Part shown: piece by piece, positions 5,174 through 23,280 of the stretch
Layout: every line of letters begins with the position of its first letter
Numbering within the stretch: position 1 is the first letter of the stretch
IMG/VR virus record: IMGVR_UViG_3300020463_000132
Coordinates: 1 to 23,853 of that record
Direction: 5' to 3' (one strand)
Length of the DNA stretch: 23,853 bases
From: a virus
The notes under the pieces: generated by a model
Told to the model about the DNA's origin: nothing
The model's database searches: none
What the model saw: only the letters and a program-made list of their open reading frames with translations
Program-made: the position numbers and the translations under genes

Positions 5174-7504
5174 CTATATAGCACAAGCTTCGCACTCTTC
5201 TTCGTCCTCTAAAGGCTTACCATCAGGCAAACCAACTTGAGGTTCAAAAGAGTTTGTTGTCTCTGTCTTAATTTCCTCTTCACTCGGATCACTCTTGAAA
5301 TCATAAGTGTTCTGATAGTATGATGTTTTCCATCCATACTTATATGTTTTTAACATATCTTGTAACATAACACTCATTGGAACTTCATTGTTCTCAAAAT
5401 GAGTTGGATTGTACGACCAATTACCACTAATGGCTTGATCAAAAAACTTCTGCATTACTGCAACAATATTTATGTAACCTTCGTTACTTGGCATATCCCA
5501 CAATAAAGTATAGTTATTCTTTAACGTTTGATACTGTGGAACAATCTGCTTAAGAGGCCCTTTTTTTGACTTCTTAACGGACAAGAACCCTCTAGGTGGT
5601 TCGATTCCGTTGGTTGCGTTCGACACAATGGAACTGCTCTCCGAAGGCATCTGTGCGGACAATGTGCTGTGCCGTAAACCGTGCTGTTGAATGTCTGTGC
5701 GTAAAGAATCCCAATCATATTTTAGTTTTATACTGCAAACTTCGTCCAGATCCTTTTTGTAAGTGTCAATAGGTAATATGCCATCACTGTATTTAGTGCG
5801 ATCAAAATACTCACACTTTCCTTTTTCTTTTGCTAACCCATTACTAGCCTTCAGTAAGTAATACTGAAATGCTTCTGTTAGCTCATGCACCTTAGTAAGT
5901 GCCTTCTTATCTGAATACCTAACACCATTCTTTGCTAGATAGTGTGCTAGTCCAATGTAACCTATACCTAAACTTCTTCTTGCTTTAGTAGATATCTCTG
6001 CGGCTTTCACTGGATACTTCTGATAATCAATAATCTCGTCTAATGCTCTAACGGCTAAATCACATAGCTCGTCCATATCATCTAATTCTTTTAGTGTACC
6101 AACATTGATAGCACTTAAAATACATAGTGCAATCTCTCCTTCTGGATCGTCAATGTGTTGTAAAGGTTTTGTAGGTAGTGTAATCTCTTGACATAAGTTG
6201 CTCATGTACACAGTATCTTTAAATGAACTGTGTGTATTAGCATGGTCGACGTTCATAATATAGATACGTCCTGTTTCTGCACGTTCTTTAACTAGAGCAG
6301 AAAATAATTCCATTGCCTTAACTTTGCGTTTTCTTAATGAAGTTTTACGTTCATACTTTTCATATAGCTCAGTAAACTTATCTTGATCAGCATAAAAGGC
6401 CTCGTATAAGTCTGGTACATCATGTGGTGAAAATAAAGTAATATCTCCGTCAGATAAAAGTCTTTCGTACATAGTTTTATTAAGTTGAATAGAGTAATCT
6501 AATCTACGTACTCTATTGTCTTCCGTACCTTTGTTATTTTTTAAAACAAGTATGTCATCGATCTCATAGTGCCAAAGCGGGAAGTGGGTAGTTGCATTAC
6601 CTCCACGTACACCATTCTGTGTACAACACCTTACCGTCGATTCGAATTTCTTTAGAAACGGAATCAAGCCAGTGTGTGCTACTTCACCACCTCTAATCTT
6701 AGAGTTGATTGCTCTAATGCGTCCTGCATTAATTCCTATGCCTGCTCTTTGTGCCGTGTACCTACCAATAGCCATATCGCTTGAAAAGATACTATCAAGA
6801 GTATCGTCGGTATCAACAAGAACACAAGAAGCAAATTGTCTAAGAGGTGTACGTACACCGGCCATGACTGGCGTTGGGATATTGATTTTAAAAAGGGAGG
6901 TCGCATCATAATATTTCCTCACATATGACATTCTAGTTTCTTTAGGGTAGTCAGCAAATAAGGTTGCCGCAATCATCATGTACATAACTTGTGGAGACTC
7001 ATAAATTTCTCCTGTGCTTCTGTCCTGGACAAGATACTTGTCTACAATTTGTCGAAGCCCTGCATACGTAAAGTTCTCATCTCTGTTATGCTTGATGTAT
7101 TTGTTAAGTTGTTTTAATTCTGTATCGGAGTATTTCTCTTTGATGTTAGCATCATATACTCCACTAGCAATATTTCTATCAATAATCTTTGTTATTGGTA
7201 CTGGATTGTATTGACCAAACGTTTCTTTATAGATAGGGTAAAGCAAAAGTCTTGCCGCCGCATATTGATAGTTTGGATTTTCCAACGTAATAAGATCGTT
7301 GGCAGATTTAATTAATATCTCTTGTATTTCTTCTGTGGACATTCCATCATAGAATTGAATGTTAGCTGTCATTTCAATCTGCGATGCACTGGTGCCTGTT
7401 AAGCCGTCGGTGGCTTCTTCAACAACAAAGTGGATTTTACTAATGTCCAGGGGTTCTACCGAACCATCGCGTTTTTTGATTTGTATACCAACGCCATTTG
7501 ACAT
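5174..7504 (-). CDS. nrdA: Class Ia ribonucleotide reductase, alpha subunit (776 aa)
   Basis: A full-length NrdA. An N-terminal ATP-cone (IQIKKRDGSVEPLDISKIH, from residue 7) provides activity regulation. Catalytic residues are in place: C227 (FASCVLV), the N436-C438-E440 triad in SNLCQEI, and C461 (IALCILS). The C-terminal tail ends CEACAI, a CxxC pair that relays electrons from glutaredoxin; E. coli has a wider CxxxxC. No intein or intron is seen. Just upstream, inside the end of the next gene, is an AATAAATA late-type box. With nrdB and glutaredoxin it forms a complete class Ia system. Confidence 0.98.
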   Translation of the reverse strand: MSNGVGIQIKKRDGSVEPLDISKIHFVVEEATDGLTGTSASQIEMTANIQFYDGMSTEEIQEILIKSANDLITLENPNYQYAAARLLLYPIYKETFGQYNPVPITKIIDRNIASGVYDANIKEKYSDTELKQLNKYIKHNRDENFTYAGLRQIVDKYLVQDRSTGEIYESPQVMYMMIAATLFADYPKETRMSYVRKYYDATSLFKINIPTPVMAGVRTPLRQFASCVLVDTDDTLDSIFSSDMAIGRYTAQRAGIGINAGRIRAINSKIRGGEVAHTGLIPFLKKFESTVRCCTQNGVRGGNATTHFPLWHYEIDDILVLKNNKGTEDNRVRRLDYSIQLNKTMYERLLSDGDITLFSPHDVPDLYEAFYADQDKFTELYEKYERKTSLRKRKVKAMELFSALVKERAETGRIYIMNVDHANTHSSFKDTVYMSNLCQEITLPTKPLQHIDDPEGEIALCILSAINVGTLKELDDMDELCDLAVRALDEIIDYQKYPVKAAEISTKARRSLGIGYIGLAHYLAKNGVRYSDKKALTKVHELTEAFQYYLLKASNGLAKEKGKCEYFDRTKYSDGILPIDTYKKDLDEVCSIKLKYDWDSLRTDIQQHGLRHSTLSAQMPSESSSIVSNATNGIEPPRGFLSVKKSKKGPLKQIVPQYQTLKNNYTLLWDMPSNEGYINIVAVMQKFFDQAISGNWSYNPTHFENNEVPMSVMLQDMLKTYKYGWKTSYYQNTYDFKSDPSEEEIKTETTNSFEPQVGLPDGKPLEDEEECEACAI

Positions 7505-12605: not shown

Positions 12606-12935
12606 TTAAAGATTGGCGGAGGTTGCTCGTTTTGCCATTTGGTCAACTTCATCTGGAGCATCAGTTTGGACAGGAGCATCACTGTCAGCTTCTTGTTTGG
12701 TGCCAAGTGTGACACCTTTCTCATCAAAGTTCTTAACTAGATTTTGTAAATCAGGGTTGGCATCATACACTTGTTTGAATCCATCGTAATCAAACTGTTG
12801 CATATCCATATTGTTCATTAATTGATTGAGTGCTTCAAAAGAAAGATAGGCAGGCTGACTTTGTGAATCAGCACTACCTATTGTGTTTCTAAAAATATTT
12901 ACGAGTGCTTCTTTGGAATTGGTAGCTTCAGTTAC
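12606..12935 (-). CDS. Downstream -1 frame of a candidate frameshift gene (up to 109 aa)
   Basis: From the -1 frame entry point this frame reads VTEATNSKEALVNIF, then AYLSFEALNQLMNNMD, then a C-terminal part QFDYDGFKQVYDANPDLQNL and an acidic tail to a TAA at 12606. The stretch before its first ATG (12818) is protein-like for 39 codons yet has no ATG, GTG or TTG, and that ATG has no Shine-Dalgarno. The simplest reading is that it is made as a C-terminal extension of the 318-aa protein by -1 frameshifting (product about 427 aa). Alternatives are a separate short protein from 12818 or a sequencing error in an A-run. Function unknown. Confidence 0.6.
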   Translation of the reverse strand, partial: VTEATNSKEALVNIFRNTIGSADSQSQPAYLSFEALNQLMNNMDMQQFDYDGFKQVYDANPDLQNLVKNFDEKGVTLGTKQEADSDAPVQTDAPDEVDQMAKRATSANL

Positions 12936-12958
12936 TTTTTTGGCTGAGCTACTTCCTT
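12932..12958 (-). promoter_or_regulatory. Candidate dnaX-like -1 ribosomal frameshift signal
   Basis: On the minus strand: a Shine-Dalgarno-like AAGGAAG (12958-12952), 10 bases, the heptamer A AAA AAG in the correct phase (12941-12935), and the UAA stop immediately after (12934-12932). Spacing and heptamer match the E. coli dnaX site. A second in-phase A AAA AAG lies in the nine-A run at 12957-12965. A weak 6-bp stem (AGCACT/AGTGCT) may form downstream. Confidence 0.6.
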
Positions 12959-13888
12959 TTTTTTTGAGTCAGTTAACATCTGACCTAATCTTCTGCTTCG
13001 TTCTACTGATTCTCGTTTTTCCCTATCAGCTGGTTCTTCTCCACCAACTGCAGGTTCACTTGCTCCAAACTCATCTGCTACTGGTTCTTCAGCACCTGCG
13101 TCCGCATCAACTGTTGGTTCCATCTCAGCTTCTGGATCTTCTGCTGGAGCCTCTGGGTCTGCACCCATTGTTGCCGGAGCGCCTTCGCCTGTTATAATGG
13201 CTACGCCACCTGTTAGTGCTTCTCTAGTAGTTTCAAAAACTGTGTATAAATTTTCTAATGCTGGTTTTACAGTATTAATGAATTCTTCGCTCTTTTCAGA
13301 ACCAAGTTCGTCTCTGATCTTATCGCCTAATTCTAGCATTGATTCAGTTTGCATTTCTGCTGTGTCTTCCATCCAGCCTGTAACTCTGTCAACCATGTCC
13401 TTTGCGGCCATTGTTAAAGTAGCGGCTTCTTCAGCACCTTCTTTAATGTCTTCCGCATCATCGTCTTTACCTTGCTTTTTAAGTATTGCTTTTTTTAAGC
13501 CTGCTGGTAATTTCTCTTGGCCTTTAGTTAAATCTTCGTCAGCTACATCTTCTTTAGCTTCTTTATCTTTAACAGCCTTTTTCATTGGCTCTTTTTTGTC
13601 GCCATCTTTATCTATATCGATATAGTCTGGCTTTGCTTTAGCTCTTTCGTGCATTTCTTGGTTGATTACGTCTAGGAACATTCTACCTTTTTGGTATGCA
13701 TCACTTGTATGAACTGTATCGAAACTTTCGTTGGTTTCAACTTGACTTAATTGTGTACGTAGTCTATTACGTGCATCTTCAAGCTGTTCATTAGTAAAGT
13801 CCTGCAAACGTAATTTCGTTCCAAAAGTTTTTGCCAATGACTCATTTAAGTCTTTAGCTGATACAATCTTAAGTTCGTTTATTTTCAT
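12932..13888 (-). CDS. Acidic virion-type protein of unknown function (318 aa)
   Basis: It begins MKINELKIVSAKDLNESL, like many proteins in this cluster. Residues 84-102 (AKAKPDYIDIDKDGDKKEP) include an EF-hand-like acidic loop and are typical of a T4-like cyanophage protein family without a name. The centre is helical, with several KK and EE blocks. Residues about 240-300 are a low-complexity Glu/Ala/Pro region. The protein ends at a UAA directly after a slippery A AAA AAG, so part of it may be extended into the -1 frame. A GATAAATA late box lies 25 bases before the ATG. Head scaffold or internal head protein is a guess from composition and context. Confidence 0.8.
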   Translation of the reverse strand: MKINELKIVSAKDLNESLAKTFGTKLRLQDFTNEQLEDARNRLRTQLSQVETNESFDTVHTSDAYQKGRMFLDVINQEMHERAKAKPDYIDIDKDGDKKEPMKKAVKDKEAKEDVADEDLTKGQEKLPAGLKKAILKKQGKDDDAEDIKEGAEEAATLTMAAKDMVDRVTGWMEDTAEMQTESMLELGDKIRDELGSEKSEEFINTVKPALENLYTVFETTREALTGGVAIITGEGAPATMGADPEAPAEDPEAEMEPTVDADAGAEEPVADEFGASEPAVGGEEPADREKRESVERSRRLGQMLTDSKKKEVAQPKK

Positions 13889-13922: not shown

Positions 13923-14360
13923 TCAGTCGTCAAAGATATACTCGTCTAATTGGCAGATATAGTTCCAAGTATGGTCTTTAGCCAGTTCAAACCGCATTTC
14001 TGCGGCATCTCTGCGGAATTCATCGTCTGTTTGCTCTATAGTATGCTTGTGGAATAAGCTGTCCATATAGTGCTTACATAGTGTTTGATCCAATCTAAGC
14101 ACCTCATTTGCCACAGTTGGATTGTTCCTAGCTCTAGCTTTGGAATATGCTATTGCTCCACGTTTACTAAATGTAGTAGCTACCCTTTTATGTGTTGCTA
14201 CATCAAATAGTATGAATCCTCCTTCTTTTTTGGATTCTCTAAATATTGTATTCTTAATACGTACTGACTTACCTTTGCCTTTGACATATGGAATATGAAC
14301 CTTCTTAAGGCCACTCTCCATGATCTCATCTAAGTCTGCTTGAAGTTTAGTCGGATTCAT
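13923..14360 (-). CDS. Conserved phage hypothetical protein (145 aa)
   Basis: ATG at 14360 (MNPTKLQADLDEIM) is preferred; a TTG two codons earlier is the only longer option. The first half has a basic strand-rich segment (VKGKGKSVRIKNTIF) and a block FILFDVATHKRVATTF that looks like a small beta sheet. The second half is helical and charged (DDEFRRDAAEMRFELAKDH). The start overlaps the end of the upstream gene by 14 bases, so coupling is likely. LDE at residues 10-12 resembles a prohead protease site. No known family. Confidence 0.72.
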   Translation of the reverse strand: MNPTKLQADLDEIMESGLKKVHIPYVKGKGKSVRIKNTIFRESKKEGGFILFDVATHKRVATTFSKRGAIAYSKARARNNPTVANEVLRLDQTLCKHYMDSLFHKHTIEQTDDEFRRDAAEMRFELAKDHTWNYICQLDEYIFDD

Positions 14361-14553
14361 TAGCAACTACCACTGTCATTCCGTTTCTATCTACTTTAGT
14401 TATAAGAGCTTTTCTTATAAGTGCTTCGATTACGAATTGTTCTCTTTCAGGGAAAGCATTCATAGGAACAGGATGTTTTAGTTTTTCTAATACTTCCTTT
14501 TCCTCATTACTTGTATGAATACTGAACTCGCCTAATAAATCATTTATCTTCAT
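14347..14553 (-). CDS. Conserved phage hypothetical protein (68 aa)
   Basis: Begins MKINDLLGEFSIHTSNEEKEVLEKL. The LGE at residues 7-9 fits the T4 prohead protease consensus. The remainder (PEREQFVIEALIRKALITKV) looks like a small winged-helix or helix-strand domain. The start overlaps the preceding stop as TAATG, and GGAAGG lies upstream. A near-identical layout is familiar from T4-like cyanophages, from memory. Function unknown. Confidence 0.75.
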   Translation of the reverse strand: MKINDLLGEFSIHTSNEEKEVLEKLKHPVPMNAFPEREQFVIEALIRKALITKVDRNGMTVVVANESD

Positions 14554-15008
14554 TATACTACCTTCCCAGCCATTGGGTTAGTACCACCCGTTGCCTGGTC
14601 TGCTTTTTGTTTAACTACTTGATCTAATTCTTTTTTATTGTATACAAATGCTGTGGGTTCGCCCTTTTTGGCTAATGGATTTTTTAATGTAACCATATCA
14701 CCTTTAATATCATCTATATCGAATTCAGTCTCTTTTCCCCCTTGAGTGGGTATTGCTAATTTACTTCCTTTTTTAAGGATAGCCTGTGTGACTTTGTCTT
14801 GTGCTTGTTGAACAGCTTTAACTGCCTTGGTACCTATGCCTTTGGCTTTGTTGGCACCAACCTTTCCTAATTGAGCTCCCATCTTTACTCCAGCCTTGGC
14901 CGCGGCTGATCCCATCTTAGCACCTACACGACCAACGGCCGCTAATGCAGGAACTACTTCAACAATTTCTTGTTCTTGTACGGGTTTTGTAAAATCCTTT
15001 GCTCTCAT
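14553..15008 (-). CDS. Ala/Lys-rich virion-type protein (151 aa)
   Basis: Begins MRAKDFTKPVQEQEIVEVV. Residues 20-75 are a repetitive Ala/Gly/Lys helix (VGRVGAKMGSAAAKAGVKMG and onward), amphipathic and basic, reminiscent of T4 internal head proteins. The C-terminal half holds a compact strand-rich segment (EFDIDDIKGDMVTLKNPLAKKG). IVE at residues 15-17 is a possible protease site. It overlaps both neighbours by one base. Function unknown; DNA- or membrane-contact roles fit the composition but are unproven. Confidence 0.75.
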   Translation of the reverse strand: MRAKDFTKPVQEQEIVEVVPALAAVGRVGAKMGSAAAKAGVKMGAQLGKVGANKAKGIGTKAVKAVQQAQDKVTQAILKKGSKLAIPTQGGKETEFDIDDIKGDMVTLKNPLAKKGEPTAFVYNKKELDQVVKQKADQATGGTNPMAGKVV

Positions 15009-15358
15009 TATTTTCTTCTTCCAGTTTTAAATTTCTTTCTACGTGCCGGAGCCTTTCTATAACGTTTCTGTGTCTGTGGCTTGTTAGCAGTAGTTAGTCT
15101 TTTAGTTAATCCACCAGCTCTTTTAATACGTGCTGTCTTAACTTTCATTACACTTCCTTTACGTGCTTTAGCTCTCTTAATATTTAATGCACTACCAACC
15201 TTCTTCTGTGCATTACAGGTTGCCGGTTGAGCTACAATACGTCCTTTACGTGAGCCAGATGTGCATCTGTATTTGCGAACAAGTTTGCCCTTGTTTCTAC
15301 CCCAAATTTGGATAACACCTTCTTTGATAGATTCAGTCATTATCTCTTTGATAAGCAT
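15008..15358 (-). CDS. Highly basic virion-type protein, paralogue 1 (116 aa)
   Basis: An extremely Lys/Arg-rich protein. After the N-terminus MLIKEIMTESIKEG comes the domain VRKYRCTSGSRKGRIV with a second cysteine 15 residues after the first. A basic tail follows (ARKGSVMKVKTARIKRAGG) and an RRKKFKTGRRK end. The next gene upstream encodes a clear paralogue, sharing WxRxxxKxVRKYRCTxGxRKGRIV. The two overlap by one base. DNA condensation or DNA-protein co-packaging is inferred from charge and the cleavable-looking leader (IKE at 11-13). Confidence 0.8.
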   Translation of the reverse strand: MLIKEIMTESIKEGVIQIWGRNKGKLVRKYRCTSGSRKGRIVAQPATCNAQKKVGSALNIKRAKARKGSVMKVKTARIKRAGGLTKRLTTANKPQTQKRYRKAPARRKKFKTGRRK

Positions 15359-15642
15359 TATCTACCGCCTGCTTTGTTTAACGCCTGTACTCTACGTGAA
15401 GCTGGGTTGGTACGTTTTGTACGTCTAGCCTTCCTCATCATACGAGCACCTACTCTAGCTCTAGTGCGTTTCATTGTTAGTCGTGCTTTCATGTTAGGAG
15501 CCGCAAAGCATTGTGCCATTTGCTTTACGATACGTCCTTTACGTCTACCAACTGTGCAACGATATTTACGCACGACCTTTTTACCAGATCTTGCCCATAT
15601 CTGCTTTTCAGTTAATGATTCATATATCTCACGTACTAGCAT
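15358..15642 (-). CDS. Highly basic virion-type protein, paralogue 2 (94 aa)
   Basis: Begins MLVREIYESLTEKQIWAR and carries the same VRKYRCTVGRRKGRIV block as its neighbour, with cysteines 15 residues apart, then a protamine-like MKRTRARVGARMMRKARRTK stretch. Close relatives occur in T4-like cyanophages, from memory. ATG at 15642 is only 5 bases after a CATAAATA late box and has no Shine-Dalgarno. IYE and LTE near the N-terminus fit a T4 prohead protease site. A role in the virion nucleoid is inferred. Confidence 0.82.
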   Translation of the reverse strand: MLVREIYESLTEKQIWARSGKKVVRKYRCTVGRRKGRIVKQMAQCFAAPNMKARLTMKRTRARVGARMMRKARRTKRTNPASRRVQALNKAGGR

Positions 15643-15647
15643 ACGTG

Positions 15648-15655
15648 TATTTATG
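15648..15655 (-). promoter_or_regulatory. T4-type late promoter box (CATAAATA), leaderless spacing
   Basis: CATAAATA on the minus strand followed by CACGT and the ATG of the 94-aa basic protein. It may drive the whole overlapping run down to 13923. Confidence 0.65.
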
Positions 15656-15688
15656 TTTGTTTTAGGGGAAGTATTATATTAAGGAAGG

Positions 15689-15925
15689 TTAAGTTAATGT
15701 AACTAGTATTACGACTATGGTTGAAAGCAGTCCAGCAACGATTGTGCCAGTAGCACCTATAATAACTTTCACCATTGATTTATTACCATTTGTAATATCG
15801 GCGTGGATATGTTCTACTTTAGTCTCAATTTTAGACAGTCGTAGCTCTAAGTTATTATATCTTTGTTCACACAAATCAACGTGTGCTTCTAAGTTTTCTC
15901 GTTCTAATGTTGTGGCTCTTGCCAT
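15689..15925 (-). CDS. Coiled-coil plus membrane-anchor protein, possibly holin-like (78 aa)
   Basis: ATG at 15925 (MARATTLEREN) has GGAG 6 bases upstream and is preferred over the ATG at 15937. Residues 5-45 form a coiled coil (LEAHVDLCEQRYNNLELRLS and onward). Residues about 54-78 are one membrane helix (VKVIIGATGTIVAGLLSTIV and on). This is the layout of XhlA-like haemolysin or holin-accessory proteins and of small cyanophage membrane proteins. A lysis role is possible but no endolysin is in the window. A late-type box lies about 85 bases upstream. Confidence 0.75.
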   Translation of the reverse strand: MARATTLERENLEAHVDLCEQRYNNLELRLSKIETKVEHIHADITNGNKSMVKVIIGATGTIVAGLLSTIVVILVTLT

Positions 15926-16011
15926 CTCTCTCTCCATTCCTTATTCTATCGTGGAAGGGGCCTATATTTAATCGCCTTTAATTTTAGATGTAATGTTTGC
16001 CTATGCACTAA

Positions 16012-16019
16012 TATTTATT
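16012..16019 (-). promoter_or_regulatory. T4-type late promoter box (AATAAATA)
   Basis: AATAAATA on the minus strand in the gap between the 142-aa gene and the coiled-coil membrane gene, about 86 bases before the latter's ATG. Confidence 0.5.
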
Positions 16020-16025
16020 AGATAC

Positions 16026-16454
16026 CTACGTTTCATTATCTACTAATTTAAAAATAATGTTACGAGTAGCATCATTCTTTGTACGAAACGCATTGTTATT
16101 TATCGTTATAGTTTCTGTCAATCCAGCAATTACTGGTACTAAATCAAAGTCATCTTTGAGGAAATCTACGGATAGTGCGTCCTCTTGTTCAATGGTAAAC
16201 TTGAAGTACCAAAGCCTTTGCTTACCTGTATATTCTGATCCAAACTCACCATTTGTGATATCAACGTCTTCAACACATTTTGGCTTTGTGTCAAAGTAAG
16301 GGTTAGCCCTCAGGCCGATAACTTGTAGAAACGTGTTCCAATTAGCTTGTTGGCTGATAGCAGTTCTATCATCGCTTCTAAATTTAGTCTGTCCTGTTTG
16401 GGTGATGTCTATTAATGTAGCAATCTCAAAGTTCATACTCATACTTATAGTCAT
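16026..16454 (-). CDS. Conserved phage protein, probably structural (142 aa)
   Basis: Contains FEIATLIDITQTGQ near the start, LQVIGLRANPYFDTKP (about 39-54) and GKQRLWYFKFTIEQED, then LVPVIAGLTETITI. The pattern recurs in T4-like cyanophages, from memory, as an unnamed protein. The ATG at 16454 lies immediately after the T-run of a terminator and has no Shine-Dalgarno; later ATGs at 16442 and 16436 are equally possible, while an upstream TTG would lie in the terminator stem. Expression would need read-through or an unseen promoter. Mostly beta strands; a tail or neck role is a guess. Confidence 0.72.
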   Translation of the reverse strand: MTISMSMNFEIATLIDITQTGQTKFRSDDRTAISQQANWNTFLQVIGLRANPYFDTKPKCVEDVDITNGEFGSEYTGKQRLWYFKFTIEQEDALSVDFLKDDFDLVPVIAGLTETITINNNAFRTKNDATRNIIFKLVDNET

Positions 16455-16490
16455 AAAAAAAGGGCGGAACAATAAATGAACCGCCCTTTT
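16455..16490 (-). terminator. Rho-independent terminator after the 120-aa gene
   Basis: On the minus strand AAAAGGGCGG pairs with CCGCCCTTTT around a 13-base loop, followed by an uninterrupted T7 run. It lies 36 bases after the upstream gene's stop and directly before the next gene's ATG. Confidence 0.88.
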
Positions 16491-16525
16491 ATATTAGTTT
16501 CAGTAACTAACTAATTAACTTTGGA

Positions 16526-16888
16526 TTACGCCGCTGTTAATGTAGTTGCCGCAACAACGTCTGAACCAGTAACGTCAATGTCGTTTGGTCCAACTGCTGT
16601 TCCTAAGTGTCTGATTGCCGCTTGTAAAGAAGCCGCGTCCCACTGAGTGTCGTCAACTAAAAGTGTTGCTACACCTGTGTTAGCATCTGCAAAAGATGAA
16701 CCAATTGCATTTGTTGCCATCATGATTGCTTCAACAACTTCGTTAGCCGCGTCGTCTTCTGCTCTAATATCTTGTGCAGAATCTGATGCATTTTGTACTG
16801 TTAATTTGTAAGCGCCAATGTTAGCACTTGATCTGTATGCTCCAACAACGTAGTTGCCGAATCCATTTACTCTTCCTATTCCAGCCAT
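16526..16888 (-). CDS. Ala-rich small virion-type protein (120 aa)
   Basis: Begins MAGIGRVNGFGNYVVGAYRS and is rich in Ala, Thr, Asp and Val (QDIRAEDDAANEVVEAIMMA, then LVDDTQWDAASLQAAIRHLG). Related small proteins occur in T4-like cyanophages, from memory, and are suspected to be structural. It has an AGGAG Shine-Dalgarno, a perfect TATAAATA late promoter and its own terminator, so it is a single-gene, strongly expressed late unit. That expression pattern supports an abundant virion component. Confidence 0.8.
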   Translation of the reverse strand: MAGIGRVNGFGNYVVGAYRSSANIGAYKLTVQNASDSAQDIRAEDDAANEVVEAIMMATNAIGSSFADANTGVATLLVDDTQWDAASLQAAIRHLGTAVGPNDIDVTGSDVVAATTLTAA

Positions 16889-16948
16889 TTTATTTCTCCT
16901 ATTTTCTAATGACCATACACACGTTTCTCTTGTGTGATATGTTACTAG

Positions 16949-16956
16949 TATTTATA
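16949..16956 (-). promoter_or_regulatory. Perfect T4 late promoter box (TATAAATA)
   Basis: Exact TATAAATA on the minus strand, 60 bases before the 120-aa gene's ATG and downstream of the stop of the 288-aa gene. Confidence 0.85.
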
Positions 16957-16977
16957 AGATTTTGGAAAAATAGCTTG

Positions 16978-17844
16978 TTATCGGCGTTTTTTAGCTCGAC
17001 TTTGTAAAGATCTTAACATTTGTACGTATCCTGGCCCTGCTTTTACTATATCGTCTATTACTTTAATGGCAGGTAGGTATTGTTTTACAAAGGTAGATGG
17101 AATACTATTTCCACTACGAGCAAGTTCTAAAAACTTTTTAGTACCTACTAAATTCTTTGAACCAACTAAGAATCTATACATGGAAAGTTCTTGTCCTGAT
17201 ACACCTATGTCAGCTACTGAGATAGTTGGCTCGTTGTCTTTAACTGATCTTGTTTCTAAGTCACGTTCAGCTAATAGTTCTTCCATGTAGATGATTATAT
17301 CACTACTTCTAAGTTTGGCTCTGGTAGCAAGAGCTAATCTAGTTGCTACCTTTTTCTTTTCCATTGTTGACAGTCTATCAAAGTTTCCTAAGTATCTACG
17401 AGTGGCTTTATAATCTGCATTGGAGATCTTGAGTGCAGTTTCTATACTCATAAATGTTTCACCGGCTCTTGATACCTGTCCGCTTGATAGTGTTGTTAGA
17501 TATCTATTGATATTCATTAACGGTAGTGTAGTTCTTCTTGCTACCATTCTAGCACTATCAGGATCTTTAAGTTTTGCTAAGGCTTCGTCATCACCATTCA
17601 CAAAGTAAATGAAGTTATGTAAGTCTGTGCCATGCATTTGAAAACGTTTATAGTTTATGTCTTTAGTTTTCTTTGCATAGGCTCTTGCATAAGGCATATA
17701 CTTTGGATACTTGCTAAGAATTTCAAGCACCAACATAGTTAGGTACAATCGTTCACAGCAATCGTTATAAGTTAGCTTTGCTGTGTCACCCGAGTTACGG
17801 GTCATTCTTGCTTCGTATAGTTCTGATAAAAACTCTAGTTCCAT
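16978..17844 (-). CDS. Helical virion-type protein of unknown function (288 aa)
   Basis: Begins MELEFLSELYEARM; LYE followed by A at residues 9-12 matches the T4 prohead protease consensus, and the start resembles that of the T4 head-packaged enzyme Alt. The rest is almost all helix and strongly basic, with YAKKTKDINYKRFQMHGTDL (about 56-75), LATRAKLRSSDIIIYMEELL (about 171-190) and a C-terminal QSRAKKRR. No enzyme motif is recognised. AAGGA upstream supports ATG at 17844. It is the last of the run 20375-16978. Confidence 0.78.
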   Translation of the reverse strand: MELEFLSELYEARMTRNSGDTAKLTYNDCCERLYLTMLVLEILSKYPKYMPYARAYAKKTKDINYKRFQMHGTDLHNFIYFVNGDDEALAKLKDPDSARMVARRTTLPLMNINRYLTTLSSGQVSRAGETFMSIETALKISNADYKATRRYLGNFDRLSTMEKKKVATRLALATRAKLRSSDIIIYMEELLAERDLETRSVKDNEPTISVADIGVSGQELSMYRFLVGSKNLVGTKKFLELARSGNSIPSTFVKQYLPAIKVIDDIVKAGPGYVQMLRSLQSRAKKRR

Positions 17845-17858
17845 TTGCTTATTCCTTC

Positions 17859-18290
17859 TTAACTTGTATAAGCTGATCTTTCTTTGTTTCCGCCATCACT
17901 CATGTATGCCGCTTTAAACATTCCAATCATTTCTTTTTGATCTTTAGCATCAAGCATCATACCTAGTACTTCATCGTTCTGAATGTCTGTTGTAAACTTT
18001 CTTTTAACATCAGGCTTAACTGCATCTGTAGTTAACATCATCTTAAGGGTCTGTGCTTTCTCAGGAGTAATATCATACTTCTTACCACTATCACTTACAA
18101 CTTTTTTGATTGGGTTAGGGTTTCCTCTGCTGTCTAACACTTTTCCTAATTGTGTAATCATAGGTTCTTTCTTGAACCCTTTATCCATTCCAGCTTCGTC
18201 ATCATCAGCTGGATCCATTTGTTTCTTTAAAGCATCAATGGCGTCTTGATCGACGGCATCAATTTCTTTTATAAAGTCATTTGCTTTCAT
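17859..18290 (-). CDS. Charged virion-type protein of unknown function (143 aa)
   Basis: Begins MKANDFIKEIDAVD; IKE at residues 7-9 fits a prohead protease site. An acidic stretch (DPADDDEAGMD) leads to a helical C-terminal half with KYDITPEKAQTLKMML and DEVLGMMLDAKDQKEMIG. A GGAG Shine-Dalgarno precedes ATG at 18290. It lies between the ligase-like and 288-aa genes in one run. No known family. Confidence 0.75.
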   Translation of the reverse strand: MKANDFIKEIDAVDQDAIDALKKQMDPADDDEAGMDKGFKKEPMITQLGKVLDSRGNPNPIKKVVSDSGKKYDITPEKAQTLKMMLTTDAVKPDVKRKFTTDIQNDEVLGMMLDAKDQKEMIGMFKAAYMSDGGNKERSAYTS

Positions 18291-18302
18291 TGTTTATCTC
18301 CG

Positions 18303-19427
18303 TTATCTTTGTACTGCTCTGTTAGCCGCACTAAAGCCAGCACGATTAACAAATTTAATATCACCAGTTGGATGAGCCAGTACATAACCTTCTCCACCTG
18401 ATTTGTCTCCTATTGATGCTTTTACATCAGCAGGTTGTTGTTCAAGCTGATCAATAATATTATCTTTAACTTTCATAATACCTGATACCACTTGCCATAA
18501 AGCACTAAAGGCTTTAATGTTTGTCTTAACATACTCAGTCATCTTTGCCTTCTTGGGTGCAGAAACCGTACTGTTCTGTAACCACTGCATAAAGTCTTTG
18601 CCTAAGTTATCTAATCCTGTATCTGTTTTACTGTTTACATAATTATATAATACTTGCGAGAAGTCTGTCATCTTCATTTGTCTTAATGTGTTCTTATCAA
18701 GTAATGAATCTATTGCTGACGAATTTTTAGTAACGATTGCACTGATATTATTAACGCCACCCATATCTACTTGTGGTGGCTCTTGTACAGTGACTGGAGG
18801 TAACACTAACAATTCGTTACCTTGAAATATATCATAATCGGTTAAAGGTTTTTCACTACCGTCCGGGTCAACTATTCTATGAATTACAACCCCTGCTTTA
18901 CTAACTGAAATACGTTTACCTATGTCACTGTCTGCTTTTACGGTATAGGAAACAATATTTGGTTTAAAGGTGAATGCACCGTTACTGTCTTCTGGTGTGT
19001 TAAAATATAATAAGTCGCCTTTGAAGTAGCCTCTATAATCTTCTGGTATCGCTTTTTCAAATATTGGAAAAGCTGATTTCATGTTGCCTGCAAATTGTTT
19101 ATAACTATCTGATTTCTCTTGGCCTTTGCCTCTGCCTAAGAGCATCTTCTCAACATCGTCACCTGACTTTGCTTTACCGTCATAACCTTTTGCAACGAAT
19201 CCTGATTTATCTGTAAACACAAACCCACCCTTGTCATCTCTGCCAAATATAACTGCTGGTGAGCCGTCCCATTTGATTGTAAGTGACTGTGTATTTCCTT
19301 TTGTTAATCCTATAATAGAATCAATAACACGTTTCGCTCCTGTACTACCTTCCCAGAAGATAACATCTTCTGCATGATCTATACGAGCACCTTCTCTAAG
19401 GATATTATTGAATTCATTAAATTTCAT
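18303..19427 (-). CDS. Ligase/nucleotidyltransferase-like virion-cluster protein (374 aa)
   Basis: Ligase-type motifs appear in the expected order: K52-W-D-G (TIKWDGSPAVIFGR) as motif I, GYFKGDLLYF (133-142) as motif III, EGYVLAHP (346-353) as motif IV and IKFVN (357-361) as motif V with K358. A long helical insertion (about 225-335) separates III from IV. This order is that of covalent nucleotidyltransferases such as DNA and RNA ligases. Similar cyanophage proteins carry a DUF label (DUF6267, from memory). The N-terminus MKFNEFNNILREGAR resembles T4 internal-protein leaders, with LRE followed by G. Its ATG overlaps the stop of the NTase gene. Adenylation activity is inferred, not shown. Confidence 0.7.
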   Translation of the reverse strand: MKFNEFNNILREGARIDHAEDVIFWEGSTGAKRVIDSIIGLTKGNTQSLTIKWDGSPAVIFGRDDKGGFVFTDKSGFVAKGYDGKAKSGDDVEKMLLGRGKGQEKSDSYKQFAGNMKSAFPIFEKAIPEDYRGYFKGDLLYFNTPEDSNGAFTFKPNIVSYTVKADSDIGKRISVSKAGVVIHRIVDPDGSEKPLTDYDIFQGNELLVLPPVTVQEPPQVDMGGVNNISAIVTKNSSAIDSLLDKNTLRQMKMTDFSQVLYNYVNSKTDTGLDNLGKDFMQWLQNSTVSAPKKAKMTEYVKTNIKAFSALWQVVSGIMKVKDNIIDQLEQQPADVKASIGDKSGGEGYVLAHPTGDIKFVNRAGFSAANRAVQR

Positions 19428-20122
19428 TACGGTAACTGAAGTCCTTCTTTTTCAAAGTAGTCTTTAGCATCTTTAACTAGATTCTCATAGTTAGGATCTG
19501 TTTTAATTTTGTTGTTGATAGTTTCAACACTTCTCATGTCATCAGCACTTGCACTATCACCCATCAAAGTTTTTGCTACTTCGTTTGGATCTTTGGTTAC
19601 AGGTTCGTTAGTAATTCTATCTACTAATCCGTTTGTTGGTGACCACTTGTAACCTTGTGCTTTTGCAATACTGGCTATCATGATCATTCTATGTTGTCCT
19701 TTGAATTCACTGTCAGCCGCACCACGTAGGGCAAACTTCATAAATTTAGGATCACCAAACATTAAATCTGTTTGTACAAATCCTCTCTTTGGATCTCCAT
19801 TGATTGGTGTTTTGAAATGTACACTAATACCTGTCTTTGCTATCCAGGCTCGGTCTTCATCATTAGGTGCGTTTTTATCTTTCCAGGCTTTAAGTTTTCC
19901 TACTAGCTCATCTTTGTTTACAGTTGCTTTATCAACTGCAACATCTAAGTCACCTGATGTATCTTTGATACCAGTTGATCCTAGCATAAAATCTATATGG
20001 TTAAGTCCTGTGATTTTCTCCAGCCATTTAAGTGTAGGCTCTACATCAGCTTTGTTTATTCGCTGTGTTGCTTCGGCACCATCTGCTGTTTTGAATACGT
20101 TACCACCCTCATTTAGTATCAT
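19427..20122 (-). CDS. Pol-beta-type nucleotidyltransferase-like protein (231 aa)
   Basis: ATG at 20122 (MILNEGGNVFK) has AAGGA 6 bases upstream and is preferred over an ATG six codons earlier. The minimal nucleotidyltransferase motif is present: MLGSTGIKDTSGDLDVAVD gives GS at 48-49 and the D-x-D pair at 58 and 60, and a third carboxylate is D119 (FVQTDLMF). The family transfers nucleotides to nucleic acids, proteins or small molecules; the acceptor here is unknown. The gene overlaps the ligase-like gene (TAATG) and the upstream 88-aa gene by 14 bases. LNE followed by GG at the N-terminus may be a prohead protease site. Confidence 0.78.
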   Translation of the reverse strand: MILNEGGNVFKTADGAEATQRINKADVEPTLKWLEKITGLNHIDFMLGSTGIKDTSGDLDVAVDKATVNKDELVGKLKAWKDKNAPNDEDRAWIAKTGISVHFKTPINGDPKRGFVQTDLMFGDPKFMKFALRGAADSEFKGQHRMIMIASIAKAQGYKWSPTNGLVDRITNEPVTKDPNEVAKTLMGDSASADDMRSVETINNKIKTDPNYENLVKDAKDYFEKEGLQLP

Positions 20123-20375
20123 CTGATTTCCTTGCTTCAACTATTTTATCTATACCACGTTTAAACTTACGAGGGTCTCCGCTTCTAATACTGTTGATAA
20201 AACGTCTTTCGATCTCCTGTGCGGTATCCGGATCATAGCTTTCTGTAACCCTATTAAGCAGATTGATAGCACTTTCAATAATGTTATTACCAGTAGATTG
20301 GATAAGAGCATCATTATTGGTAGTTCTATGAATGCTGTTTAACTCTTCTAGTATTGATCGTGTACGTTTTCTCAT
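20109..20375 (-). CDS. Conserved phage hypothetical protein (88 aa)
   Basis: Begins MRKRTRSILEELNSIHR, continues with NNIIESAINLLNRV and DPDTAQEIERRFINSIRSGDP, and ends in a basic helix (RKFKRGIDKIVEARK). The TRSILEEL opening and the spaced helices are familiar from T4-like cyanophages, from memory. A GGGAAC element lies upstream of the ATG. It is the first gene of the minus run down to 16978. Two or three helices; function unknown. Confidence 0.78.
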   Translation of the reverse strand: MRKRTRSILEELNSIHRTTNNDALIQSTGNNIIESAINLLNRVTESYDPDTAQEIERRFINSIRSGDPRKFKRGIDKIVEARKSDDTK

Positions 20376-22215: not shown

Positions 22216-23280
22216 TTAAGCTAATTTCTTAGCTATCTCTATCTCTGCTTCTGTGGCAAAGTTTTTATCCCAGTCATCTAAATGTTTCTTCATGAAAGCA
22301 TTAAACACTGGAGGTATTAGTGCGAGTGCAAACAACGTGAAGTATCCTACTCCTGTGTTTGGTGCACCTACTTCATCTAGTTCCCAGAAATGAGTTTCGC
22401 CTCTGTCATGATGATCAGCTTGACGACCTATCTCTATAAAGAACCATGAAGTGAATAGTGTTGAGTTATCCCAAGAATGTCTATAGTCTATTGGCTCGCT
22501 TTTAACACGAATCAAACCATAGTGTTCTAGATAGTTAAGTGCTTCTAACTCAAAGTTTGATATTACCCAAACAAGAGCCAAACACGCAACACCTAACCAA
22601 CCACCTGCAAAGAAGAACAATGCAAGTGAAGGAACACTCATCATATAACCTCTTATCCATCTGTTACCAATAGATATGAAAGGCTTCTGTAAACGTTTCA
22701 ATCTTTGCTTCTCCATCTCAAACAAGAACTTAGATTGACCTAAGTGTGATTTGACATAGTGTGAATAGATATCACGTCCTCTAGGTGCAGTTGCAGGATC
22801 ATCTTCACTTGCTAATTCCAAGTGATGATTGTACACATGAGCATAACAGAAATGTGCTGAACCTGATAACGCCATCATCCAACGACTGATTACGAATGCA
22901 ACGCCTTTGGTGTGCGATAGTTCATGCCCATAGATTATACCTATGCCTGCAAATATACCTGTTGATAATACAGCACCTAACAGTTCTGCACCTGCCATAC
23001 CATTATATATTTGGTAAGCAAGAGCTAACTGAAGTGCTACAAAGACTGGCAACATCATATACATTACTGTATTCTGTAACCAGGGGATACCTAAGGTCTC
23101 ACCATTCTCATCAACTGCTCCACGAGTCTGTACGTTGATAAGGGTATCAAGTATAATGCCTACTCCCAATAGGCCCACACCTGTCCAAGCCCATGCTCCA
23201 CCTGCCAACACTCCTGCGAGTGTTACAAGTATTAACAATGGTGCTATGAAGTACCTTATGTTTACGAAAAGTTTATTCAT
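22216..23280 (-). CDS. alkB: AlkB-like membrane di-iron alkane/fatty-acid hydroxylase (354 aa)
   Basis: An integral membrane protein with hydrophobic helices at about residues 10-28, 33-50, 72-92, 98-118, 212-240 and 308-328. AlkB-type histidine boxes are present in order: HELSH (H119, H123), HVYNHH (H148, H152, H153) followed by the familiar ASEDDPATA, NYLEHYGLIR (H253), and RQADHH (H290, H291). In AlkB the last box is normally RHSDHH, so its first histidine is Q287 here, leaving eight of nine. The closing GVGYFTLFALALIPPVF also matches AlkB. It would hydroxylate alkanes or similar chains at an inner-membrane di-iron site, using electrons from a rubredoxin; no rubredoxin gene is in the window. 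GGGAGA 6 bases upstream supports ATG at 23280. It has its own late promoter and terminator. Confidence 0.9.
   Translation of the reverse strand: MNKLFVNIRYFIAPLLILVTLAGVLAGGAWAWTGVGLLGVGIILDTLINVQTRGAVDENGETLGIPWLQNTVMYMMLPVFVALQLALAYQIYNGMAGAELLGAVLSTGIFAGIGIIYGHELSHTKGVAFVISRWMMALSGSAHFCYAHVYNHHLELASEDDPATAPRGRDIYSHYVKSHLGQSKFLFEMEKQRLKRLQKPFISIGNRWIRGYMMSVPSLALFFFAGGWLGVACLALVWVISNFELEALNYLEHYGLIRVKSEPIDYRHSWDNSTLFTSWFFIEIGRQADHHDRGETHFWELDEVGAPNTGVGYFTLFALALIPPVFNAFMKKHLDDWDKNFATEAEIEIAKKLA

Follow-up and report, generated by a model that had tools for sequence, protein, structure and literature searches.

How is a protein domain translated when it lies behind the stop codon of another gene, in the -1 frame, with no start codon in its first 39 codons? 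The question is raised by the minus strand of the window, a stretch of virus DNA of 23,853 nt (IMG/VR record IMGVR_UViG_3300020463_000132). The original prediction, made from these letters alone, was a programmed -1 frameshift of dnaX-like architecture yielding two nested virion proteins. From a comparison with relatives, we conclude that recoding into a fusion almost certainly takes place, and we place it at another site.

Anatomy of the junction

The elements originally described are all there. The Shine-Dalgarno-like AAGGAAG, the 10-nt spacing, A AAA AAG and the immediate UAA can be read on the minus strand, the -1 frame runs for 109 codons, the first ATG (12818) coming only after 39 of them, and the second in-phase heptamer noted upstream is in fact part of a longer A9G run. 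The features are as follows.

13888..12932, minus strand: upstream 0-frame gene, 318 aa, with an N-terminal capsid-targeting-like peptide (MKINELKIVSAKDLNE, followed by S), helical domains and an acidic linker
12967..12985, minus strand: hairpin GGUCAG-AUGUUAA-CUGACU, 1 nt 5' of the A9 run; its stem covaries in relatives
12965..12956, minus strand: A9G run, the conserved slip site by comparison (A9 = 12957-12965; 0 frame TCA AAA AAA AAG)
12958..12952, minus strand: Shine-Dalgarno-like AAGGAAG, 10 nt before the terminal A AAA AAG
12922..12952, minus strand: predicted hairpin 3 nt 3' of A9G (-9.3 kcal/mol, z -4.0 in the window)
12941..12935, minus strand: terminal A AAA AAG, a possible second slip site, found in 5/68 marine junctions
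12934..12932, minus strand: 0-frame stop UAA
12935..12927, minus strand: V-T-E in the -1 frame, then A; a prohead-protease-like [ILVM]-x-E directly behind the shift
12935..12606, minus strand: -1-frame extension, 109 codons, with a winged-helix-like C-terminal domain (C-domain)

The 318-aa gene ends ...TCA AAA AAA AAG GAA GTA GCT CAG CCA AAA AAG TAA, and the A9G run itself contains an in-phase A AAA AAG. A -1 shift at either heptamer would give a 427-aa product, the two versions differing only between the sites (GSSSA or EVAQP). The predicted hairpin at 12922..12952, whose loop includes the second heptamer and the stop, is weak in relatives and not consistently present in the window's clade.

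Conservation of the slip site

Relatives were taken from IMG/VR (~200 related loci), and their junctions were read by script. This gave 123 distinct frameshift junctions, counted as distinct sequences and not as independent events: 68 from a first, marine set, which reduce to 36 representatives at <70% C-domain identity, and 55 out-of-sample junctions, mostly freshwater, retrieved with a profile headed by a distant relative. One locus, L002, was left out of both classes, as the script misplaced its junction owing to an early stop; this stop (24-38) falls at codon 5 of the upstream gene, unlike in its relatives.

The downstream domain lies in the -1 frame in 68/68 first-set junctions and then in 55/55 new ones, where the extension spans 99-131 codons. 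In all 68 first-set junctions, the upstream gene closes with an in-phase slippery run; in the second set, the run has nine A's (48) or ten (7). Overall, the run counts at least nine A's in 118/123 junctions, eight in two and six in three, and at least nine are kept even where the register differs (three junctions) or another base follows (7 A9C, 12 A10T). It ends in an in-phase A AAA AAG in 99/123. Across 1.07 Mb of these loci, at least nine A's occur once on that strand outside the junctions, and the 80 other Lys-Lys-Lys triplets of the same upstream ORFs never use AAA AAA x. The pattern goes well beyond what chance would give. A sequencing or assembly error, or a decayed gene, is suggested by the homopolymer at the junction but is refuted by this comparison: the same frame relation recurs in all 123 junctions, of which two come from MAG contigs, so that the probability left to it is negligible.

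The conservation in relatives that the original prediction called for was thus found for the frame but not for the heptamer on which it relied. The terminal A AAA AAG is present in only 5 of the 123 junctions, all marine and always beside the main run; it is absent from 63/68 marine junctions and from the 55 others, although every one of them shares the -1 frame. Nor is there any Shine-Dalgarno enrichment upstream of the conserved site across relatives (duplex energy -3.1 against -3.35 in shuffled sequences), and the AAGG of the window is partly a by-product, because A9G is followed by G. A dnaX-like shift at the terminal heptamer driven by AAGGAAG, for which the two elements at a 10-nt spacing and the second heptamer of the five marine junctions speak, is therefore very unlikely. 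Judged from these junctions, it is the A9 run further upstream that is conserved and that is very probably the main slip site; the first reading had picked the wrong one.

Some loci carry further repeats. In L007, the upstream gene ends (~5820-5873) in two tandem A9G runs, of which only the second lies in an open stretch of the -1 frame. In L064, L066 and L080, TCA AAA AAA AAG occurs once more ~45-60 nt before the main run, where the -1 frame is not open. L079 contains the junction and C-domain twice in one contig (5729-6076, 6945-7295), with identical C-domains.

Coding status of the extension

The median distance from the stop to the first ATG of the extension is 113 nt. The stretch between them has a pN/pS of 0.27 (62 close pairs), and its changes fall on codon positions 1/2/3 as 359/177/657, a third-position excess. 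This substitution pattern indicates that the stretch is under purifying selection and, at the level of sequence comparison, that the -1 extension is genuinely coding and conserved. The impression that the -1 frame is protein-like is hence borne out, and a conserved downstream ORF without a start of its own is kept together with a slippery site, as in programmed recoding. The predicted pair of nested products, probably virion proteins, is likewise supported; as originally suggested, the two may be made in a set ratio.

In thirteen further junctions, which form one clade, the A-run is absent and the domain is encoded by a gene of its own, whose ATG mostly follows TAAGGAT. All of these fall on the same side of one branch in the tree of the upstream protein (SH-aLRT 100); when this tree was rooted with Paride and Atu_ph07, the outgroup branches were too long to order the frameshift and separate-gene arrangements. 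Relatives with a normal ATG had been named as grounds for giving up the frameshift. Such relatives do exist, but as the A-run is gone from them they back the finding rather than refute it, and they are a natural control. The C-domain might still be initiated inside the -1 frame, independently or coupled to the upstream gene, as the separate-gene relatives and a GTG overlapping the UGA stop in a few junctions (L047, L059, L116) would allow. However, the stretch preceding the distant first ATG is itself under purifying selection, and no A-run is retained outside the frameshift arrangement, which makes such initiation most improbable.

RNA structure and the slipping machine

In the window's clade, 23 loci called by threshold have a hairpin at 0-3 nt on the 5' side of the run, each with p<0.05 against synonymous shuffles. 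Its stem covaries (0.324 versus 0.184 shuffled, with 90.6% of cells paired versus 81.3% shuffled), and sliding the partners destroys the covariation. A homopolymer of ~9 A's or T's with an adjacent 5' hairpin is the anatomy of stem-loop transcriptional slippage: runs of nine A's slip efficiently on bacterial RNA polymerase (RNAP), and a 5' adjacent nascent stem-loop stimulates this slippage (PMC5009743). The same group shows no structure 3' of the stop (z 0.0). Most other clades are without the 5' hairpin, and many have 3' structure instead. In freshwater relatives, a hairpin 3' of the stop reaches a mean z of about -3.4 to -3.9 against synonymous shuffles (control about -0.3, other positions mostly near 0) and shows some two-sided changes; its stems begin about 9-23 nt from the run. 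A clade that has only A6G (L060, L062, L070) retains the heptamer, and its 3' structure is strong (z about -4).

For the window's clade, these sequence features make RNAP slippage somewhat the likelier agent, and the preservation of at least nine A's despite changes of register or next base is more in keeping with polymerase slippage than with the need for a heptamer. The main competitor is ribosomal -1 frameshifting on the A AAA AAG within A9G, helped by the long A-run and by 3' hairpins, which would give the same 427-aa product. It would explain why the in-phase heptamer ends the run in 99/123 junctions, and A_AAA_AAG is the shiftiest of such heptamers on E. coli ribosomes (PMC5009743). The freshwater structure directly behind the stop, which stands out against a synonymous-codon null (z -3.9, control about -0.3), counts against RNAP slippage because 3' structure cannot act on the polymerase; so does the A6G clade, whose run is too short for known RNAP slippage and which retains both heptamer and 3' structure. 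These three observations are why we hold RNAP slippage to be only somewhat favoured, and in the other clades with a strong 3' hairpin ribosomal slippage is possible.

Yet a heptamer does not need three extra A's, and at least nine A's are kept where AAG is lost (A9C, A10T or another register). The relatives show no Shine-Dalgarno enrichment, the window's clade has a z of about 0 behind the stop with weak 3' structure only inside the overlap, and even the freshwater stems are far from the run for a stimulator of programmed ribosomal frameshifting (PRF). In addition, an upstream hairpin abutting the site is reported to attenuate -1 PRF in human cells (PMC6321510). Ribosomal slippage is a tentative alternative to RNAP slippage, although a substantial one.

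The upstream protein and the C-domain

The upstream protein is homologous to Paride_0034, annotated as a virion structural protein (hhalign E 1e-9), an annotation carried by its isolate homologues, and the two genes share a neighbourhood of nuclease, ribonucleotide reductase and PAAR genes. In Atu_ph07, the homologue lies in the region of CDS 31-76, which holds 29 virion proteins identified by mass spectrometry (PMC6102473); the main text of that paper does not name the homologue. A tblastn search of isolate phages with the upstream protein gave no match at E 1e-5, and a divergent relative as query matched only the jumbo phages Phosso, Atu_ph07 and Paride-type (E 1e-3 to 3). Neither the upstream protein nor the C-domain matched a meaningful family in Pfam or PHROGs, and a literature search of partial coverage found no earlier report of the gene pair.

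Near the N-terminus of the upstream protein, L14 N15 E16 are invariant in 50 sequences. By analogy, this N-terminus is like a T4 capsid-targeting peptide, being a short peptide that ends in [IL]-x-E before a putative mature start; the exact T4 consensus is [LI]-x-E. The T4 targeting peptides and their protease, gp21, have been described (PMC9958956, PMC9026906).

The model of the C-domain is winged-helix-like (pLDDT 76). A fold search of the PDB returned weak, many winged-helix matches (best E 0.06), and the matches in a viral library are uncharacterised phage proteins. No match was found by tblastn against isolate phages at E 1. The isolate homologues that can be detected are those of the upstream protein only. 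Paride_0035 and Atu_ph07 gp043, which occupy the matching place, were considered as C-domain homologues and rejected, as hhalign found no homology.

A protease-like motif at the junction

Directly behind the slip, [ILVM]-x-E is found in 122/123 fusions. The hydrophobic residue of the motif follows in part from the stop codon, which in the -1 frame is read as NTA or NTG. The E is not forced in this way, and it lies two residues behind the stop-derived codon in 43/68 junctions against a background of 0.9%. Where the C-domain is a separate gene, it starts with MKVSEILKE, MLMSDIINE or MKVFELYEE, a short peptide with the same kind of motif. A gp21-type protease (PF03420) is encoded by two long relatives, G020 and G023, and gp23 scores over the family cut-off in three of the longer relatives; the gp23 of G020 and G023 has LLE followed by S or LME followed by S near residue 41. 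No gp21-type protease was found in 5/7 longer records or in 18 marine relatives, all perhaps fragments, nor on the window fragment. From the motifs, we infer that the shift lends the winged-helix-like domain a head address and that a protease then frees it, a combination of capsid address and release that we consider fairly probable.

Neighbouring genes

Several neighbouring genes of the window (14347-20140, minus strand) also begin with capsid-targeting-like peptides: MKINDLLGE, MLIKEIMTE, MLVREIYESLTE, MKANDFIKE, MKFNEFNNILRE and ...ILNE. Two genes of this block, 15008-15358 and 15358-15642, encode very basic products that resemble each other, and the block possibly encodes internal or ejected head proteins. 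The contig further carries, on the minus strand, genes like those of a ring-hydroxylating oxygenase alpha-subunit and a fatty-acid desaturase (329-1393 and 22216-23280), as well as a NifU-like gene and two 2OG-Fe(II) oxygenase-like genes.

Proposed mechanism and its meaning

We propose that programmed recoding at A9 yields, besides the head-type protein of 318 aa, a fusion of 427 aa that ends in the winged-helix-like domain. In the window's clade, the hairpin that forms in the nascent RNA immediately before A9 would help RNAP to slip there; a fraction of the transcripts would gain one extra A, and normal translation would take them into the -1 frame. Slippage of the ribosome at the A AAA AAG within A9G may contribute as well or act instead, most probably where a clade has a 3' hairpin. 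The fusion would then reach the prohead by means of the capsid-targeting-like peptide at the N-terminus of its upstream part, and there a gp21-type protease would probably cleave after the [ILVM]-x-E of the junction, setting the domain free. Taken as a whole, from recoding at A9, with RNAP as the likelier agent, to capsid delivery and release, we favour this account by a cautious judgement.

More tentatively still, the arrangement may follow a Gag-Pol-like logic in a tailed phage: a small cargo domain would be joined by recoding to a capsid-targeted head protein and freed at the junction by the prohead protease, while the slipping machine would have switched within the family between RNAP (5' hairpin and A9) and the ribosome (3' hairpin or A6G), and one clade would use a separate gene with its own targeting peptide. 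The recoding is conserved in abundant marine and freshwater T4-like phages of a large uncultured family, and ORF callers would split or miss the recoded gene. It suggests that phages may dose cargo into the head by recoding. Because the relatives arrive at one outcome by several routes (5' hairpins, 3' hairpins, a short heptamer or a separate gene), they also offer natural material for separating transcriptional from ribosomal slippage, both by comparison and in reporter tests.

Comparison with known systems

Among transcriptional cases, a close likeness is to the transposase of IS1447 (IS3 family), in which nine A's directly 3' of a hairpin likewise fuse a second frame to the first, with ~16% slippage each way (PMC6211511). 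However, IS1447 is a transposon, its productive shift is +1 and its slippage was shown experimentally, whereas that of the phage is predicted. Citrobacter rodentium tssM1 (PMC4256274), which has a transcriptional frameshift on A11, likewise carries its A-run near the end of the short form; the longer form is a minor share, and both forms are needed. Unlike here, tssM1 is a secretion gene, has no nearby hairpin or Shine-Dalgarno signal, and its run is uncommon among tssM genes.

The -1 ribosomal frameshift of E. coli dnaX shares the in-phase A AAA AAG, but it truncates its product where the phage shift extends it, and the phage has no conserved Shine-Dalgarno stimulator. Lambda G/GT and the A2 and T7 tail or capsid frameshifts similarly produce a minor, C-terminally extended virion-assembly protein by -1 recoding. 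The proteins are different, and the present junction is set apart by its A9 run, its capsid-targeting-like N-terminus and its protease-like motif. Finally, the T4 internal proteins cut by gp21 (PMC9958956, PMC9026906) have a short N-terminal peptide that ends in a protease site with a glutamate before the cut, much as is predicted here. In T4, each cargo has its own targeting peptide, whereas here the cargo would borrow one through recoding.
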